Origin: Candidatus Izemoplasma sp.
Lineage (GTDB): Bacteria > Bacillota_I > Bacilli_A > Izemoplasmatales > Izemoplasmataceae
NCBI GenBank assembly: GCA_036172455.1
Contig: JAXKVY010000002.1
Span: forward strand, 248,001-312,000
Direction of reading: 5' to 3'
DNA length: 64,000 nt
Shown: positions 21,702-29,491 of the stretch, piece after piece
How positions within the stretch are numbered: position 1 is the stretch's first letter
Layout: each line of letters starts with the position of its first letter
Translations under genes and position numbers: made by a program
The notes under the pieces: model-generated
The model's input: the letters and a program-made list of their open reading frames with translations, nothing else
Databases searched by the model: none
Told to the model about the DNA's origin: nothing

Positions 21702-22001
21702 ATGAGTAAGAACCATTTATCAGATCTTGAAAGAACAGTTAACCTATTCAAGATTTATTCAGACTATACACGACTCAGAATCATTGATTTGCTATCTAAA
21801 GCAGAGCACTGTGTTCAAGAAATCTCGCTTGCGTTAGATACTTCACAGTCAGCTATTAGTCATCAACTAAAGCAATTACGGGACAACAACGTGGTGTCTG
21901 CTCGAAAAGAAGGCAAACAGGTCTTCTATTCACTAAAAGATAATCATGTAAAAGAAATATTTTTAACCGCTTATTCACATATTACAGAATGTGACGACTA
22001 A
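21702..22001 (+). CDS. ArsR/SmtB-family metal-sensing repressor
   Basis: A 99-aa winged-helix repressor with ALDTSQSAISHQLKQLRDNNV as its HTH (DNA recognition helix). The C-terminal alpha-5 helix shows D-N-H followed 11 residues later by H and, three on, E (SHITE). This reproduces the spacing of the CzrA alpha-5 zinc site (Asp, His, His, His), with Glu replacing the last His. A second cysteine-based site is not evident (the alpha-3 region has a single EHCVQ). It lies 13 bp after the ATPase gene, so the order is exporter then regulator, and it probably acts at the 19556-19575 operator. Confidence 0.88.
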   Translation: MSKNHLSDLERTVNLFKIYSDYTRLRIIDLLSKAEHCVQEISLALDTSQSAISHQLKQLRDNNVVSARKEGKQVFYSLKDNHVKEIFLTAYSHITECDD

Positions 22002-22030
22002 AAAAGTAGAGCTCTCACTCTACTTTTTTT
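22000..22030. terminator. Bidirectional terminator
   Basis: Stem AAAAAGTAGAG/CTCTACTTTTT between the convergent arsR and GGDEF/EAL genes, with suitable A- and T-runs on both strands. Confidence 0.8.
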
Positions 22031-22037
22031 ATTGGTG

Positions 22038-23480
22038 TTAAAACAAATCTTGAATACCGTCTCGATATTTGTATAGATATTCATAAATCAATGTTTTGTT
22101 TAGAGGTGGGGTGAAATAATAGCCCTGTACATAATCAACACGGCACTCCCTTGTAAATTCAAGTTGTTGCTTTGTTTCAACACCTTTACTCATTATTTCA
22201 TAACCAAAGTGGCGTGCAATACGCACAAATTGCTTATAAAACGTCTGCTTTGTTTTCCCACTATATTTATTAGGTAACATTTTAGCATTTAATTTAATGG
22301 TCTTGATGTCAACATCGAGTAACGAATCAAAAATATTATGAATTGCTTCTATGGTGTCTACTGAGAATCGAAACCCAATTTCTTCTAAATTTTTAATGGC
22401 TTTGATTACACGCTCATCGTGTAATGACTGTTCTGAAATATCAAATTCTATATTTCTTAAGTCAATATCATACGTATGAATGAGTTCTAACAATTCCGCT
22501 TTTTTTATTGATGTTAAAGCGCGTGAAGATATATTTAAAACAATTTTAAAAGCATCAGAAACTAATTGTTCTCTTTTCCAATAGGCGTACTGTTTAAAGG
22601 TTTTTTTTATGATACGTAAATCAATTTCGCGCATAATATTTTTTTCATATGCGATATCTTTAAACTTATTTGCCTCAATCACACGATAGCCATTTTGTTC
22701 CCACCGTAAGAGACTCTCAACACCAACAATATTTAAATTATCTTTAGAGAATATCGGTAAAAAGTGGGGTTCAAACTCATCCAAATCTAATCCTTTTTCT
22801 AATGTTTGATAGAATAATCTCGTGTCATTATAAACGATACGCATTTTATCATCAGCTATTAAATAGTGCTGATGTTTTATTTTTGCTTGCATCATTGCAA
22901 ATTGTGCTAGTGATACAAGTTGATCAAATGATTTGATGTGTTGGCTATAACCAATACTTCCGGATCCAATCACACAATCACCGTAATACATACTGCCATG
23001 AATCTCAAATTCTGTCTGTCTAATGTGTTTATAAAGTTTACGCATCATAGTGAGTTGTTCATCATGGCGCAATGCTTCATTAGACAAGTCATCTGATGAG
23101 AACTTACCAACGACAACCAGTTGATTAACCGCATATAGAAATGTTGGTGACTCAAAGGTGTCTTTTAAACTGCGATAAATATTCTGGGCAATAGAATCTG
23201 TTAGTTTAAGGTCAAAAAACTGGCTATACATTGGCAAATTTTTTATTTCAATAAACATTACAAAGTAATGTGTACTGACTCTACGGTTAAAGTGTTTCGC
23301 TATTTTCGCTTTTGAGACCACTAATTTGACATCTTTTTGCTCATTTTGATAATACAGTATTAAAGCAAACCCCATCAAACTTAATAGTACAACGATTATA
23401 TTTTGTGTAATAATGGATTGGATAATTAAGATACTGATTCCAAGTAGCCCAAAATAGAATGTTGCCGAAAACTTCTTCAC
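22038..23480 (-). CDS. Membrane protein with degenerate GGDEF and EAL domains
   Basis: A 480-aa protein with two N-terminal membrane helices (about residues 5-45), a GGDEF-fold domain (about 70-210) and an EAL domain (about 225-475). The GGDEF loop is lost (YAVNQLVVVG where RxGGDEF is expected), though AQFAMMQAKIKH keeps the fold's AMxxAK signature. The EAL domain keeps VGVESLLRW, the Asn of LNISS, the Lys of IKTIKLN and the VQGYYFTPPL tail. It has SVDTIEA in place of DDFGTG and SKGVET in place of EGVET, so the general base and a metal ligand are gone. It is probably not a diguanylate cyclase or phosphodiesterase but may bind c-di-GMP, as LapD/FimX-type proteins do. It starts with GTG one base after the mreB stop (TAA-T-GTG), implying coupled translation. 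Last gene of the riboswitch-mreB operon. Confidence 0.88.
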   Translation of the reverse strand: MKKFSATFYFGLLGISILIIQSIITQNIIVVLLSLMGFALILYYQNEQKDVKLVVSKAKIAKHFNRRVSTHYFVMFIEIKNLPMYSQFFDLKLTDSIAQNIYRSLKDTFESPTFLYAVNQLVVVGKFSSDDLSNEALRHDEQLTMMRKLYKHIRQTEFEIHGSMYYGDCVIGSGSIGYSQHIKSFDQLVSLAQFAMMQAKIKHQHYLIADDKMRIVYNDTRLFYQTLEKGLDLDEFEPHFLPIFSKDNLNIVGVESLLRWEQNGYRVIEANKFKDIAYEKNIMREIDLRIIKKTFKQYAYWKREQLVSDAFKIVLNISSRALTSIKKAELLELIHTYDIDLRNIEFDISEQSLHDERVIKAIKNLEEIGFRFSVDTIEAIHNIFDSLLDVDIKTIKLNAKMLPNKYSGKTKQTFYKQFVRIARHFGYEIMSKGVETKQQLEFTRECRVDYVQGYYFTPPLNKTLIYEYLYKYRDGIQDLF

Positions 23481-23481
23481 A

Positions 23482-24510
23482 TTATTCCACAGGTTTTACG
23501 TAATAATTACCACGGTTTCGCAATAAAACTTTGGTTCCCTCAACAATCGCAGTCAGTGGATTTTTAGCAATGTGTACTTCTAATCCAACTTCTTCTTCGA
23601 AGAATTCTTTGACGCCATCAATTAAGGCACAACCACCATTAACAAACATACCGCTTTCAATAATATCAGCACTTAATTCCGGTGGTGTACTTTGCAAAAC
23701 CTTTAATATAGTATTGGTAATGTTTTGGAATGGTTCAATGAACAAGTCTCTTATTTCAGACTGCTTGACTTCAATTTGTCTTGGTAACCCTGATACAATA
23801 TCGCGTCCATTTGCATGGGAAACTTTTTCTTCTTTAAGGTCTTTACGCACGGTCCCAATGTCTTCTTTAATCCGCTGCGCTGTTTTCTTACCCACTAAGA
23901 TACCATGGTTATATTGTAAATGATTAATAATTACATTATCGAGATAATTCCCTGCCACTCGCAGTGATTCACTGACAACAATATCTCCAAGTGATAATAC
24001 ACCAATATCAGTACTCCCGCCTCCAATATCTACAATTAAATGTCCTATACTATCATAAATATCTAGACCAGCACCGATTCCACCGGCTTTTACTTCTTCT
24101 TCGATGAAGACATCTGGAACATTCATACTTTTTGCTAGATCTGTCATCGCATCCCGTTCAATTTGTGTTACCTCACTTGGACAACAAATTAGCAATGTTG
24201 AAGTTTTTAACTGAACATCGACTTTTTCAGCTTTTTTGACGGCAAATTCAATCATTTTTTTAGCCGCATACATATCGGAAATAACACCTTGATTTAACGG
24301 ACTTACAATGCGAATTCCATGATGTCCCCGTCCAATCATCGTGTCAGCACTATTACCAACGGCAATAACTTCATTTGTCTCATAGTCTAACGCTATTACA
24401 CTTGGTTCGTTAAAGATGATTCCTTCACCTTCAACATACACCAATAAATTTGCTGTTCCTAAATCTATTCCAACCTTAATGGCTTTTAAATCGTCTTTTT
24501 TACTCATCAT
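23482..24510 (-). CDS. mreB: MreB-family actin, third paralogue of the operon
   Basis: Actin-like ATPase (342 aa) forming membrane-associated filaments. Phosphate-1 motif VGIDLGTANLLVY, phosphate-2 IVDIGGGSTDIGVLS and adenosine motif FVNGGCALIDGVK are intact. The usual IEEPxAAAIG loop reads IEEEVKAGGIG: the Glu is kept but Pro is replaced by Glu. LRVAGNYLDNVI stands where cell-wall MreBs have RxGGDxxDxxI. The start is ATG 24510 (or the next codon, ATG 24507), with AGAGGTGA just upstream; the GTG at 24516 is inside that site. It lies 9 bp after the second mreB and 1 bp before the GGDEF/EAL gene. Of the three it has the most altered adenosine motif (GGCA for GGGA/S). Confidence 0.93.
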   Translation of the reverse strand: MMSKKDDLKAIKVGIDLGTANLLVYVEGEGIIFNEPSVIALDYETNEVIAVGNSADTMIGRGHHGIRIVSPLNQGVISDMYAAKKMIEFAVKKAEKVDVQLKTSTLLICCPSEVTQIERDAMTDLAKSMNVPDVFIEEEVKAGGIGAGLDIYDSIGHLIVDIGGGSTDIGVLSLGDIVVSESLRVAGNYLDNVIINHLQYNHGILVGKKTAQRIKEDIGTVRKDLKEEKVSHANGRDIVSGLPRQIEVKQSEIRDLFIEPFQNITNTILKVLQSTPPELSADIIESGMFVNGGCALIDGVKEFFEEEVGLEVHIAKNPLTAIVEGTKVLLRNRGNYYVKPVE

Positions 24511-24519
24511 TTTCACCTC

Positions 24520-25542
24520 TTATAATTTCAATGGATTTACTAAATAATCGCCACGATTTTTCAGTAAATACTTAGAGCCTTCAGCGACACAAGTCAATGG
24601 ATTAGGAACTACTTTAACTGGTACATTGATGCGTTTTTTAACAAATTCTTCAACGCCTTTAACAAGGCTTCCGCCACCAGTTAAATAGATACCATGCTTA
24701 TAGATGTCCGCACTTAGTTCAGGCGGCGTATCCTTCAAGACTGCACTGATTAGTTTGACAATTTCTTCATAAATTGGTGTGATGACTTTTAAGACATCTT
24801 CGTTCGTGATTGTTACCCATTTAGGCACACCACGTACAATGTCACGCCCTGCGAAGCGCATTGATTTATCAACGGCGTCTTCACGTAAATCAGCCAAATT
24901 AATTTTAGCCTTCTCACTTGTTAATTCACCAATTTCAACTTTATCTTTTTGTTTGACATATTTTGCTAATTCGCTATCAATGTAGTTACCTGCCATACGA
25001 ATTGTACGCGATAATACGATGTCACCATAAGACATGATTCCAACATCAGTAGTTCCACCACCAATATCGACCATCATGACACCTTTCGATTCAAAAATAT
25101 CAATATTTGATCCGAGGGCTGCTGATTTGATTTCTTCATCAATCAATACTTCTTGCATACCCATATTAGTCGCTAACTCAATAATGATATCCCGTTCAAT
25201 TTTTGTTACTTCACTTGGGCAACACATTACACTAGAGGTATTACTTAAATCTTCATCTGTTAAATCTTCAATTTGAGTAAGAACATATCTAAGCAATAAT
25301 TTAGCAGCTTTCATATCACTAATAACACCATTTTTTAATGGTTTGATTACTTCTATTTTACTGTGCACTTTTCCTAACATTTTGTGAGCATCGGTTCCTG
25401 CTGCAACAATTTTACCACTTTCACGATCAAACGCGATTACGCTTGGTTCGTTAAATATAATGCCTTTTTGTTCTAAAAAGACAAGCAAATTCGCTGTACC
25501 GAGGTCAATGCCAATACCAATTCTTTTTTTATTTTTTGCCAT
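24520..25542 (-). CDS. mreB: MreB-family actin, second paralogue of the operon
   Basis: Actin-like ATPase (340 aa). Motifs: GIGIDLGTANLLVFLE (phosphate 1), MVDIGGGTTDVGIMS (phosphate 2), YLTGGGSLVKGVE (adenosine) and IDEEIKSAALG in place of the canonical IEEP segment, again without the Pro. IRMAGNYIDSELAKYV replaces the GGDxxD segment. The N-terminus is basic (MAKNKKRIGIG). It lies 11 bp after the first mreB. The three proteins are clearly paralogous but quite diverged, which suggests distinct filament roles rather than recent duplication for dosage. No mreC/mreD or penicillin-binding protein gene is nearby. Confidence 0.93.
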   Translation of the reverse strand: MAKNKKRIGIGIDLGTANLLVFLEQKGIIFNEPSVIAFDRESGKIVAAGTDAHKMLGKVHSKIEVIKPLKNGVISDMKAAKLLLRYVLTQIEDLTDEDLSNTSSVMCCPSEVTKIERDIIIELATNMGMQEVLIDEEIKSAALGSNIDIFESKGVMMVDIGGGTTDVGIMSYGDIVLSRTIRMAGNYIDSELAKYVKQKDKVEIGELTSEKAKINLADLREDAVDKSMRFAGRDIVRGVPKWVTITNEDVLKVITPIYEEIVKLISAVLKDTPPELSADIYKHGIYLTGGGSLVKGVEEFVKKRINVPVKVVPNPLTCVAEGSKYLLKNRGDYLVNPLKL

Positions 25543-25553
25543 TGTTTACCCTC

Positions 25554-26585
25554 CTAAAATTCTCCAAAATAGTGTTTTTGATCTATTTTGAGTAATTTTT
25601 TTGTTCCATCTACGACGTCCGTCAATGGTGTTTCTGATATATGGATATCAACATGCGTTACATCTTCAAAATATGTCTTTATACCACGTATCATGGCACC
25701 ACCACCAGTGATGATAATTCCATTATCAATAAGGTCTCCAGATAATTCAGGTGGGGTCGATTCTAAGGTTCCTATTAAACTTGCTTTAAGTGCTTCAAAA
25801 CATTCAAGCAAGACTTTACGAATTTCTTCAGCTTTTAGGACAACCATTTTTGGTAATCCCCCAACTAAATCACGACCCATCACTTCAAAAGTGAGCACAT
25901 TACCATTCTCATCTGTTGGTAAATCTCCCGTTAAAGAAGCTAGATGAACCTTTGCGTTCTCTGCTGTTTGTGGTCCGATTTCTAATTGATGTGTTTCTTT
26001 GACATACTCCGTAATTTGCTTATCAAAATATGATCCTGCAACAGTGATCGTTCTTGATAAAACGACATCACCAAGTGATAACACACCAAAGTCTGTCGTT
26101 CCACCACCGATGTCCATAACGAAACGTCCTGATGGATGGAAGATATCGACGCCGCATCCAATGGCTGCAGCTTTAATCTCTTCATCAATACGGGTGTCTT
26201 CTACACCAAGTTCTTTCCCCAATCGTAAGATGGCAGCTTTCTCTGTTTCTGATATCTCAGATGGGATACAAATTAATAATCGAGCGATCTGATTTGTACT
26301 ATTCACAAATAACTTATCAAATGTAAATAGAAGAATTTCTTTTATCATTCCGATATCAGAAATCACTCCATTGCTGAGTGGTTTAATGACTTCAATTTTG
26401 TCATGTACTTTACCGACTAATTCAGCCGCTTCGTAACCCACTGATACAACCTTTTGTGTCAATTTATCTACTGCAATATAACTAGGTTCGTTAAAAACCG
26501 TCCCTCGGCCTTCAACATAAATCAGAAGATTTGAAGTTCCTAAATCCACACCAACGTTTAGTTTGCCTTTTGGTTTGTCACTCAT
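25554..26585 (-). CDS. mreB: MreB-family actin, first paralogue of the operon
   Basis: Actin-like ATPase (343 aa) and first gene of the operon after the c-di-GMP riboswitch. Motifs: VGVDLGTSNLLIYVEG, VMDIGGGTTDFGVLS, IITGGGAMIRGIK, and IDEEIKAAAIGCG in the IEEP position. It has the longest insert between the phosphate-2 region and the C-terminal subdomain (LTGDLPTDENGNVLTFEVMG). AGGAGGATTTTTAA precedes the ATG. Shared derived features of the three paralogues (E for P in the EEP loop; AGN/AGS for GGD) point to the MreB type of wall-less or motile Mollicutes-related lineages; that comparison is from memory and needs a tree. Confidence 0.93.
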   Translation of the reverse strand: MSDKPKGKLNVGVDLGTSNLLIYVEGRGTVFNEPSYIAVDKLTQKVVSVGYEAAELVGKVHDKIEVIKPLSNGVISDIGMIKEILLFTFDKLFVNSTNQIARLLICIPSEISETEKAAILRLGKELGVEDTRIDEEIKAAAIGCGVDIFHPSGRFVMDIGGGTTDFGVLSLGDVVLSRTITVAGSYFDKQITEYVKETHQLEIGPQTAENAKVHLASLTGDLPTDENGNVLTFEVMGRDLVGGLPKMVVLKAEEIRKVLLECFEALKASLIGTLESTPPELSGDLIDNGIIITGGGAMIRGIKTYFEDVTHVDIHISETPLTDVVDGTKKLLKIDQKHYFGEF

Positions 26586-26621
26586 TTAAAAATCCTCCTA
26601 TAGTTTATTTGCATAAAATAA

Positions 26622-26653
26622 ATAAAAAATACGCCTAATAAATATTAGGCGTA
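26622..26653 (-). terminator. Intrinsic terminator of the c-di-GMP riboswitch (expression platform)
   Basis: Arms TACGCCTAATA and TATTAGGCGTA (26630-26653) form an 11-bp stem followed by a T-run (26622-26629) on the minus strand. It lies about 60 nt past the aptamer and 37 bp before the first mreB ATG, so it can stop transcription before the operon. Confidence 0.88.
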
Positions 26654-26715
26654 CGCATTTCGCAATATAAACAAGATGTCTCAAAAAAACAACATACATG
26701 TCCTGTTTCATAATA

Positions 26716-26804
26716 AAATATTGCGGCCCAGCCGGCATCGGTAAAACCATTAGCCCTGTGACTTTGCGTCTACACATTTCTGTGTATTTGCCCTTTGAAT
26801 ATTT
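26716..26804 (-). promoter_or_regulatory. Cyclic di-GMP-I (GEMM-I) riboswitch aptamer
   Basis: On the minus strand the class I landmarks appear in order. P1 arms are AAATATT/AATATTT (26798-26804 with 26716-26722). GGGCAAA is at 26787-26793. A hairpin TACACA-GAAA-TGTGTA carries the GNRA tetraloop. The invariant GACGCAAAG is at 26762-26770. Then come CACAGGGCTAAT, a GGT-TTT-ACC hairpin, and GATGCCGGCTGGGCCGC resembling the receptor/3' strand. An eight-base segment overlapping the 3' P1 strand (26718-26725) can instead pair with 26661-26668 just before the terminator, giving a plausible switch. Whether ligand turns the operon on or off cannot be read with certainty. Confidence 0.9.
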
Positions 26805-26819
26805 ATCTTATACAATTAC

Positions 26820-26848
26820 AGTCTACGTGAGAAAATGCCCTTTGTCAA
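26820..26848 (-). promoter_or_regulatory. Promoter of the riboswitch-mreB operon
   Basis: TTGACA (26843-26848) and TAGACT (26820-26825) lie 17 bp apart on the minus strand. Transcription would begin near 26813, about 10 nt before P1 of the aptamer. From here back to the tyrS terminator (about 26849-26986) I see only AT-rich sequence. Confidence 0.78.
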
Positions 26849-28275: not shown

Positions 28276-28475
28276 TAAAAAGTCCGTCCTTCATAAAAGG
28301 ACGGACAATATTTCCGCGGTACCACCTTAATTCTAAGACATTTGTCTTAGCACTCAATGAAGATAACGGATTCACCGTTTATGCTTTGCACATAAATGCT
28401 CCTAAGTGTAACCATATCACTTATTCTCAGTTTCCACCAACCACTGATTCTCTATCCAATAAGTCTGATATGCAT
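28276..28475 (-). promoter_or_regulatory. T-box leader of tyrS
   Basis: T-box consensus AAGGTGGTACCGCGG is at 28314-28328. A terminator with arms GTCCGTCCTT/AAGGACGGAC (28282-28306) and a T-run follows. Stem I contains the distal loop GGTGGAAA, and a Tyr codon TAC (minus strand, 28408-28410) lies about 28 nt beyond, suitably placed to be the specifier. No clear promoter sits between it and ccpA, so it may be read through from ccpA. Confidence 0.92.
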
Positions 28476-28489
28476 GCTTAATCATTGCA

Positions 28490-29491
28490 TTATTTTGTTG
28501 TTTTTCTTAATACAATAGAGTGTGGTAACTTAACCACTCGCTCATCTACTTCTTCTTTGTTCATTAATTTTGTTAACAGGCGCATTCCAACAGCCCCTAA
28601 GTCATAAATAGGGACATCGACACAACTTAATTGTGGTCGAGATAATCGAGCATATTTCGTGTTTTGGAAACCAACAACACCAATATCATTTGGTACGTTT
28701 ACTTCATTCGCAAATGCGACATTCATAAATGAAATCGCAATCGAATCACGTACAGCCACAACACCATCAACTTTATTATCTTTAAAATATTCGTTAAAGT
28801 GTTCAGTATTAATTGAAATACGACCACTTGTGCGCATCACTTTTGATGGTAAATTCGCTTCATTTACAGCGCGTAAATATCCCGCTTCTTTGAGATCATT
28901 TACCATATACTTTCTCACTGTTGATACCATATAAATATTTTTTCTACCTTCATCAATTAACTTTTTCGTAATTTCATATCCAGCACGTTCATAATCAATC
29001 GATACCGATGGTATTTCATTATCCTCTGGATAGAAGGTATTGGTTAATACAACTGGAATTTGATATGTATTTTTTATCGTTTTTAAGAAAGCATACTGTG
29101 CCTCAGTAATTTCATCATTAAGATATAAAATACCATCCACTTGTGCCGCTATAATCTCTCTTAAAATATCTTCCTCACTCGCTTCTTCACTTTCTAAGAT
29201 ATAGAGCAAGATAGAATACTTATAAACTCGGGCAATATCGGCAATTCCATTCATCATCTCGGCAATACTTGCACGAGACATATCTGGTACAACGACAGCG
29301 ACTGTTGTACTTTTGCGACTAGCGAGTCCTTTTGCGAATGCATTAGGTTTATAGCCTAACTCTTCAATTACTTTTAACACGCGTTCGCGTGTTTCTGGTT
29401 TTACTTTTTCTGGATTATTAATAGCACGAGATACTGTTGCTAAACTCACACGAGCAGCACCAGCTACATCATAAATTGTTGCTTTACTCAT
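28490..29491 (-). CDS. ccpA: CcpA-type LacI-family catabolite control protein
   Basis: Global carbon-catabolite regulator (333 aa), which in Firmicutes binds cre sites with HPr-Ser-P. The N-terminal LacI HTH is TIYDVAGAARVSLATVSRAI with hinge KPNAFAKGLASRKSTTVAVVVPD. The sugar-binding-fold core follows, with IPSVSIDYERAGYEITKKLI, VPNDIGVVGFQNTKYARL and the C-terminal LGAVGMRLLTKLMNKEEVDE, all close to Bacillus CcpA. A cre-like site overlaps its own -35 box, which suggests autoregulation. Other cre-like sites are at pfkA, tdh-kbl and the GH13 gene. HPr/HPr kinase genes are not in the window. Confidence 0.9.
   Translation of the reverse strand: MSKATIYDVAGAARVSLATVSRAINNPEKVKPETRERVLKVIEELGYKPNAFAKGLASRKSTTVAVVVPDMSRASIAEMMNGIADIARVYKYSILLYILESEEASEEDILREIIAAQVDGILYLNDEITEAQYAFLKTIKNTYQIPVVLTNTFYPEDNEIPSVSIDYERAGYEITKKLIDEGRKNIYMVSTVRKYMVNDLKEAGYLRAVNEANLPSKVMRTSGRISINTEHFNEYFKDNKVDGVVAVRDSIAISFMNVAFANEVNVPNDIGVVGFQNTKYARLSRPQLSCVDVPIYDLGAVGMRLLTKLMNKEEVDERVVKLPHSIVLRKTTK

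Follow-up and report, generated by a model that had tools for sequence, protein, structure and literature searches.

In a window of 64,000 nucleotides from a Candidatus Izemoplasma species (contig JAXKVY010000002.1, positions 248,001 to 312,000), a predicted class I riboswitch for cyclic diguanylate (c-di-GMP) precedes three genes for MreB-type actins, mreB1, mreB2 and mreB3, and a gene for a membrane protein with degenerate GGDEF and EAL domains. We regard it as almost certain that this putative actin operon is governed by the c-di-GMP riboswitch, and on balance our analyses favor the fuller reading that c-di-GMP would switch off an actin cytoskeleton that does not serve wall synthesis, with a receptor-like protein encoded alongside. 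Class I c-di-GMP riboswitches usually govern motility, adhesion or c-di-GMP enzymes.

Association of the riboswitch with the actin genes

The window contains a single class I c-di-GMP aptamer (cmscan, RF01051), and its 65.7 bits stand well above the gathering score of 35 bits; the whole genome has three such aptamers, the one of the actin operon included. This is the match that the first-pass annotation had expected from Infernal, and the remainder of its layout was likewise found: a promoter (consensus scan), an intrinsic terminator behind the aptamer, three mreB genes (PF06723) separated by 11 and 9 bases, and the EAL gene (PF00563) one base further on. The gap of 9 bases refers to the mreB3 start at ATG 24510; the GTG at 24516 in the list of open reading frames falls inside the Shine–Dalgarno sequence. 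As had been claimed, strong terminators were not predicted between the operon genes, and the first one after the aptamer-linked terminator lies at the operon end. From this layout, we read the whole set as one putative operon (Table 1).

Conservation was followed in the window and 120 relatives, of which the metagenome-assembled genomes (MAGs) are incomplete. The mreB triplet, or its visible part, is present in 13 members of the family, the window included, and because RF01051 was found just 5' of it in all 13, the association of riboswitch and triplet is not due to chance. One of these loci (G013) is that of Candidatus Izimaplasma ZiA1. The EAL gene directly follows mreB3 wherever the contig extends far enough, and its product is found almost only together with the actin genes: in 90 genomes of the order, the homologues in the cassette score 524–740 bits (191 for one cut by a contig end) and other EAL proteins at most 167. 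These relatives were found by an alignment-based scan, and a single-sequence scan gave nothing. By our own mapping, the G at the ligand-selective position (Vc2 G20; PMC9262584) is present in 15 of 15 aligned actin leaders, as is a GAAA tetraloop.

The complete set of riboswitch, mreB1, mreB2, mreB3 and EAL gene was also found in three further MAGs (L087, L090 and L093). Two of them, L090 (L090:3749-9329) and L093 (L093:4295-8813), are labelled Spirochaetia, have 54% and 45% G+C, respectively, and carry different flanking genes. Other strong MreB matches were not found in these two MAGs. As their contigs are 214 and 123 kb long and do not have Izemoplasma composition, mis-binning is rather improbable; in L093, mreB1 is broken by a TAA and mreB3 is split, by decay or assembly error, and the aptamer of L090 scores best to the sister family c-di-GMP-I-GGC, under the gathering score of that family. 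In the sister family of the window's own family, G064 and G086 hold parts of a rearranged version, with the EAL gene before mreB1 in G064 and two tandem c-di-GMP-I aptamers ahead of the EAL gene in G086 (L091:1011-1619). The flanks differ between the window and G002 (tyrS and arsR), most other family members (a shared upstream gene pair), L087 and the Spirochaetia MAGs, and the interior of the cassette is constant despite these several chromosomal positions. Beside the tyrS flank, the window has a T-box leader at 28294-28494, 5' of tyrS (RF00230, 123 bits). The linkage across genera and into a second nominal phylum, together with the conserved antiterminator design described below, strongly supports the earlier proposal that actins are tuned by c-di-GMP at the RNA level.

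Leader architecture and predicted direction of the switch

We compared 15 orthologous leaders of the actin operon, using RNA energies that leave aside the tertiary fold of the aptamer and the kinetics of transcription. The window leader is predicted to fold more stably than every one of 200 dinucleotide-shuffled versions (z −4.6). The 5' strand of the aptamer, AUUCAAAGGGC, complements the 5' arm of the terminator, with a native mean of −9.4 kcal/mol in the 15 leaders, compared with −3.5 kcal/mol against 48 other terminators of the same loci (none of 20,000 draws matched the native value) and −3.9 kcal/mol against shuffled terminator arms. Native combinations also pair better than cross-species ones, which equalled them in 129 of 20,000 permutations, and compensating changes keep the leader pairings in L087 and G031. 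In folds of transcripts truncated within the loop of the terminator, the 5' arm of this hairpin pairs with the aptamer 5' strand at a predicted probability of about 0.5–0.7 in 12 of 15 leaders, and of just 0.12–0.34 in G014, G029 and G040. The aptamer 3' end, in turn, pairs with a downstream AUAUUGYG in every leader, forming an anti-P1 hairpin; as native pairs are not favored over cross-species pairs in the anti-P1 and P1 helices, these two support the structure by conservation alone. Strong terminators stand at the equivalent place in 14 of the 15 leaders, with a weaker one in L087 (−8.0 kcal/mol).

The terminator is thus compatible with the folded aptamer and the antiterminator is not, as far as sequence and folding tell. 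Such coexistence of aptamer and terminator characterizes the OFF switch Cd1, whereas the two are mutually exclusive in the ON switch pilM (PMC9262584). The terminator lies clear of the aptamer, and the antiterminator is built with the 5' strand of the latter; the ligand should therefore favor termination, and it is quite likely that the riboswitch, for which the first-pass annotation gave no direction, is an OFF switch by which c-di-GMP halts transcription. At low c-di-GMP, the aptamer 3' strand would be sequestered in the anti-P1 hairpin and the 5' strand would pair with the terminator 5' arm, permitting transcription of the operon; at high c-di-GMP, the folded aptamer would keep its 5' strand, the terminator would form, and expression would be off.

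Several results weigh against this mechanism. The cross-species pairing tests are weakened by kinship among the genomes, and the antiterminator complement of the window itself is, at −6.7 kcal/mol, the second weakest of the set and is equalled by 4% of the control terminators. Furthermore, the complete leader of the window folds with the terminator present (P 0.95), and equilibrium folding of complete leaders shows the antiterminator in L087 only. Since the complete leader folds with the terminator, switching must be settled during transcription.

The same ligand-free folds, in which the terminator is present in every leader but that of L087, would suit an ON switch, or one acting on translation or stability, by which c-di-GMP would increase expression of the actins, for instance to make attached cells stiffer or to anchor them. 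A long helix could serve such a switch as well, as it links the start of the transcript to the strand immediately 5' of the ribosome-binding site and could affect stability or translation. This helix of 13–16 pairs is kept in the actin leaders, with compensating changes in other genera (G031) and a mean of −11.9 kcal/mol, compared with −4.1 kcal/mol for shuffled partners, and it may contribute to mRNA stability or lock the read-through state. However, the separation of aptamer and terminator, and the fact that the only conserved terminator-blocking element uses the aptamer 5' strand, make this alternative unlikely.

The other c-di-GMP riboswitches of the lineage show a different arrangement. 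In a comparison of terminator positions, in which a spurious terminator was called within the anti-P1 hairpin of two actin leaders (L007 and L018), 11 of the 14 non-actin riboswitches with a measurable terminator have it overlapping the 3' end of the aptamer, which is an ON design, and the actin-operon riboswitches have a terminator without this overlap. The genome's two remaining c-di-GMP-I riboswitches (L076:5134-5739 and L076:7564-9240, contig 8) precede genes for TasA/camelysin-like fibres, with SipW-like signal peptidases nearby, and the 3' end of the second aptamer forms part of its terminator, again an ON design; these gene names are our own reading of the sequences, with no family search behind them. 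Riboswitches of TasA/SipW-like fibre genes in the lineage thus appear to be mostly of ON architecture, and the actin skeleton is probably turned off as surface-attachment fibres are turned on. Separately, the fibre-type aptamers of the order (L013, L014, L015, L020, L021, L025 and L028-L031) carry UAGCAAA or a similar sequence where the actin aptamers have GGGCAAA; an A seems to occupy the place that corresponds to Vc2 G20, and this may tilt ligand preference to cyclic GMP-AMP.

Table 1. Features of the putative actin operon and its leader, in window coordinates
Feature	Position	Strand	Basis
Sigma-70-type promoter TTGACA-17-TAGACT	26820..26848	-	Consensus scan, 10/12 matches; upstream sequences of orthologous leaders
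Predicted transcription start	~26813	-	From promoter 26820..26848
Class I c-di-GMP riboswitch aptamer	26719..26802	-	RF01051, 65.7 bits, E 1.2e-10
Aptamer 5' strand AUAUUCAAAGGGC, predicted to pair with terminator 5' arm as antiterminator	26790..26802	-	Duplex energies against control terminators; fold of loop-cut transcript
Transcript 5' end, complement of 26624-26609	26800..26815	-	16-bp helix in fold of full leader
Anti-P1 hairpin: aptamer 3' strand CGCAAUAU (26725-26718) with AUAUUGCG (26668-26661)	26661..26725	-	In 15/15 aligned leaders
Intrinsic terminator, −13.6 kcal/mol, then U run	26629..26654	-	Terminator prediction
Post-terminator strand pairing with transcript 5' end	26609..26624	-	Leader folding and leader comparison
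Shine–Dalgarno sequence AGGAGG of mreB1	26594..26599	-	Sequence
mreB1, 343 amino acids, Spiroplasma-type actin paralogue 1	25554..26585	-	PF06723, E 8e-104; clade support 100/100
mreB2, 340 amino acids, paralogue 2	24520..25542	-	PF06723, E 1e-108; clade support 100/100
mreB3, 342 amino acids, paralogue 3, start ATG 24510	23482..24510	-	PF06723, E 2e-112; clade support 100/99
Membrane protein of 480 amino acids: two transmembrane helices, degenerate GGDEF fold, degenerate EAL domain; predicted c-di-GMP receptor	22038..23480	-	PF00563, E 1.2e-40; AlphaFold, Foldseek, residue table
Terminator-like hairpin at operon end, common to the converging arsR-like gene	22000..22029		Called on + strand; complementary stem, T runs on both sides

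The three actins and the GGDEF-EAL protein

In a tree of 40 MreB sequences, in which the Spiroplasma rows are partial, each of the three paralogues forms a single, well-supported clade that includes a Spirochaetia sequence; the triplication therefore predates the spread. All three paralogues join Spiroplasma MreB3 and MreB5 and the MreBs of other genomes with multiple MreBs on a 100/100 branch, apart from the wall-type MreBs, and their nearest solved structures are those of Spiroplasma. A genome from another family of the class (G103) contains two near-identical MreB-MreB-EAL sets (L079:5205-13849), the MreBs of which stand beside paralogues 2 and 3; a riboswitch was not found in this stretch. 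The association of actins with the EAL protein may therefore predate that with the riboswitch. We also observed many MreBs, in Haloplasma-like numbers and in the same clade, in two further genomes (L080 of G096 and L081 of G118); a riboswitch was not found in the G096 stretch, and an EAL homologue was not seen in the G096 and G118 stretches that were read.

MreB normally partners wall synthesis, and the L087, L090 and L093 MAGs each have one or two transpeptidase genes, which would agree with the three MreBs being ordinary wall-synthesis scaffolds, or leftovers, that came to lie behind a c-di-GMP riboswitch by chance. However, a penicillin-binding transpeptidase was found in none of 61 genomes of the order, by a search that matches 10 of 14 control genomes, and MreC in none of 41. 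The MreBs group in one clade with the Spiroplasma actins, and the three paralogues have been retained intact together though most relatives are without them. We consider the explanation by wall synthesis highly improbable and rejected it, on account of the missing transpeptidase and MreC and the clade membership.

The label of a degenerate GGDEF/EAL membrane protein, given in the first-pass annotation, agrees with the AlphaFold model (predicted local distance difference test 83), which has two N-terminal hydrophobic helices followed by a GGDEF-like and an EAL fold. The nearest solved folds by Foldseek are PaMorA, DosP, PA0575 and, further down, LapD. The GGDEF Pfam family (PF00990) did not match the window protein, and the GGDEF motif is absent in all homologues, replaced for example by AVNQL, so that the protein lacks what defines a diguanylate cyclase. 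In the EAL domain, with residues numbered by the RocR ligand list given in PMC7911125, three metal ligands are replaced: none of the 13 homologues retains D296 (A, T or N instead), none of the 12 readable ones retains E352 (K in the order, T in G103), and in place of E265 the order has D and G103 has H. The E and L of the EAL motif, R179, D295 and K316 are kept in all homologues, Q372 in all readable ones, and N233 in all except G103. Because the metal ligands are lost everywhere and the residues contacting the ligand are kept, the protein is probably a receptor; that it senses c-di-GMP rather than acting as an enzyme is a likely assignment. The strict linkage, the universal catalytic loss and the kept contact residues are consistent with the dead GGDEF/EAL reporter that had been proposed earlier.

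Retention of the EAL-motif glutamate and of Q372 would also be expected of a phosphodiesterase, whether active or conditional, that would reduce c-di-GMP and so act back on its own riboswitch, as would the position of the gene behind the riboswitch, which is direct in G047. Against such an enzyme stand the replaced metal ligands and the missing GGDEF motif, and the full set of these ligands is present in 15 of 17 further EAL domains from the order. Either kind of activity thus appears very unlikely, and we rejected an active phosphodiesterase because no readable homologue has retained D296 or E352. For the putative receptor, we propose that it binds c-di-GMP without cutting it and signals to MreB filaments at the membrane, probably as a second, faster level of control; that it acts on the filaments has slightly less than an even chance of being correct.

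Known systems and the proposed function

Among the known systems close to our model is the Cd1 riboswitch on the flagellar operon of Clostridioides difficile (PMC9262584), likewise a class I aptamer of OFF architecture with a whole motility-type operon downstream; its terminator, too, is compatible with the folded aptamer and is in competition with an antiterminator. In contrast to Cd1, the genes under control here are those of an actin cytoskeleton, the antiterminator is predicted to recruit the aptamer 5' strand instead of the 3' (A) strand, and the transcript 5' end forms an additional helix with the post-terminator strand. The actins resemble the swimming cytoskeleton of Spiroplasma MreB1-5 (PMC9710875; PMC8432965), with clustered paralogous MreBs in wall-less bacteria, the same well-supported clade and the nearest solved structures, and an additional non-actin gene 3' of mreB3. 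However, the Spiroplasma system comprises fibril and five MreBs, the additional gene there encodes a lipoprotein (PMC10074174), and a link to c-di-GMP is not described for it in the open-access literature searched. Haloplasma-type bacteria, to which G096 and G118 may belong, similarly combine many MreBs with the lack of a wall; as noted above, a riboswitch was not found in the G096 stretch, nor an EAL homologue in the G096 and G118 stretches. Like LapD, FimX and other degenerate GGDEF-EAL receptors, the window protein has both folds, lost catalytic residues and kept ligand-contact residues; unlike LapD and FimX, it has two plain N-terminal transmembrane helices and a linkage to actin genes, and its ligand binding is a prediction. 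A c-di-GMP riboswitch on MreB was not found described in the open-access literature, which leaves most subscription journals outside, and within the same limit, the initial statement that no system with this layout is known has held.

A scan of named genome contigs puts the window with Izemoplasma-type (Mycoplasmatota/Tenericutes) bacteria, and its host is read as wall-less. The host genome has 14 GGDEF matches, and as these domains are common, c-di-GMP is presumably made. Flagellin was found in none of 41 genomes of the order. The filaments would shape, and possibly move, the cell, and they would be off in the sessile state while ON-type fibre genes come on. In our judgment, the chances are even that the output is a change of shape or motility and not a static skeleton. 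Other observations count against the model: a cultured Izemoplasma relative, which may or may not carry the operon, was described as non-motile and coccoid (PMC8397711); most members of the order are without the triplet, which makes the cassette an accessory one; and in G047 (L084:2044-3774), a riboswitch stands directly before the degenerate EAL gene in a MAG where mreB was not found. The non-motile relative would also agree with an operon serving mainly cell division or membrane organization. Yet, as most related species are without the operon, it is not needed for division; in addition, c-di-GMP is a classic sessile–motile signal, and the other riboswitches of the lineage stand before surface-fibre genes. 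We therefore regard a role mainly in division or membrane organization as somewhat unlikely, and return to shape change or motility under c-di-GMP control. As a tentative extension, the cassette may be a module with two levels, the amount of actin being set through the OFF riboswitch and filament activity through the dead membrane receptor, which moves between lineages (Izemoplasma-type bacteria and Spirochaetia MAGs) as one unit and acts opposite to the adhesion fibres.

It is known that c-di-GMP switches flagella and pili against biofilm. If our model is true, control by c-di-GMP extends to the actin cytoskeleton in cells without wall or flagella. The model offers a testable answer on the role of multiple MreBs in wall-less bacteria outside Spiroplasma and a candidate input signal for changes of shape or motility driven by actin, and the compact four-gene cassette with its own sensor RNA would be suited to study in a laboratory cell. 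The putative operon would then represent the wall-less counterpart of the decision between flagella and biofilm.

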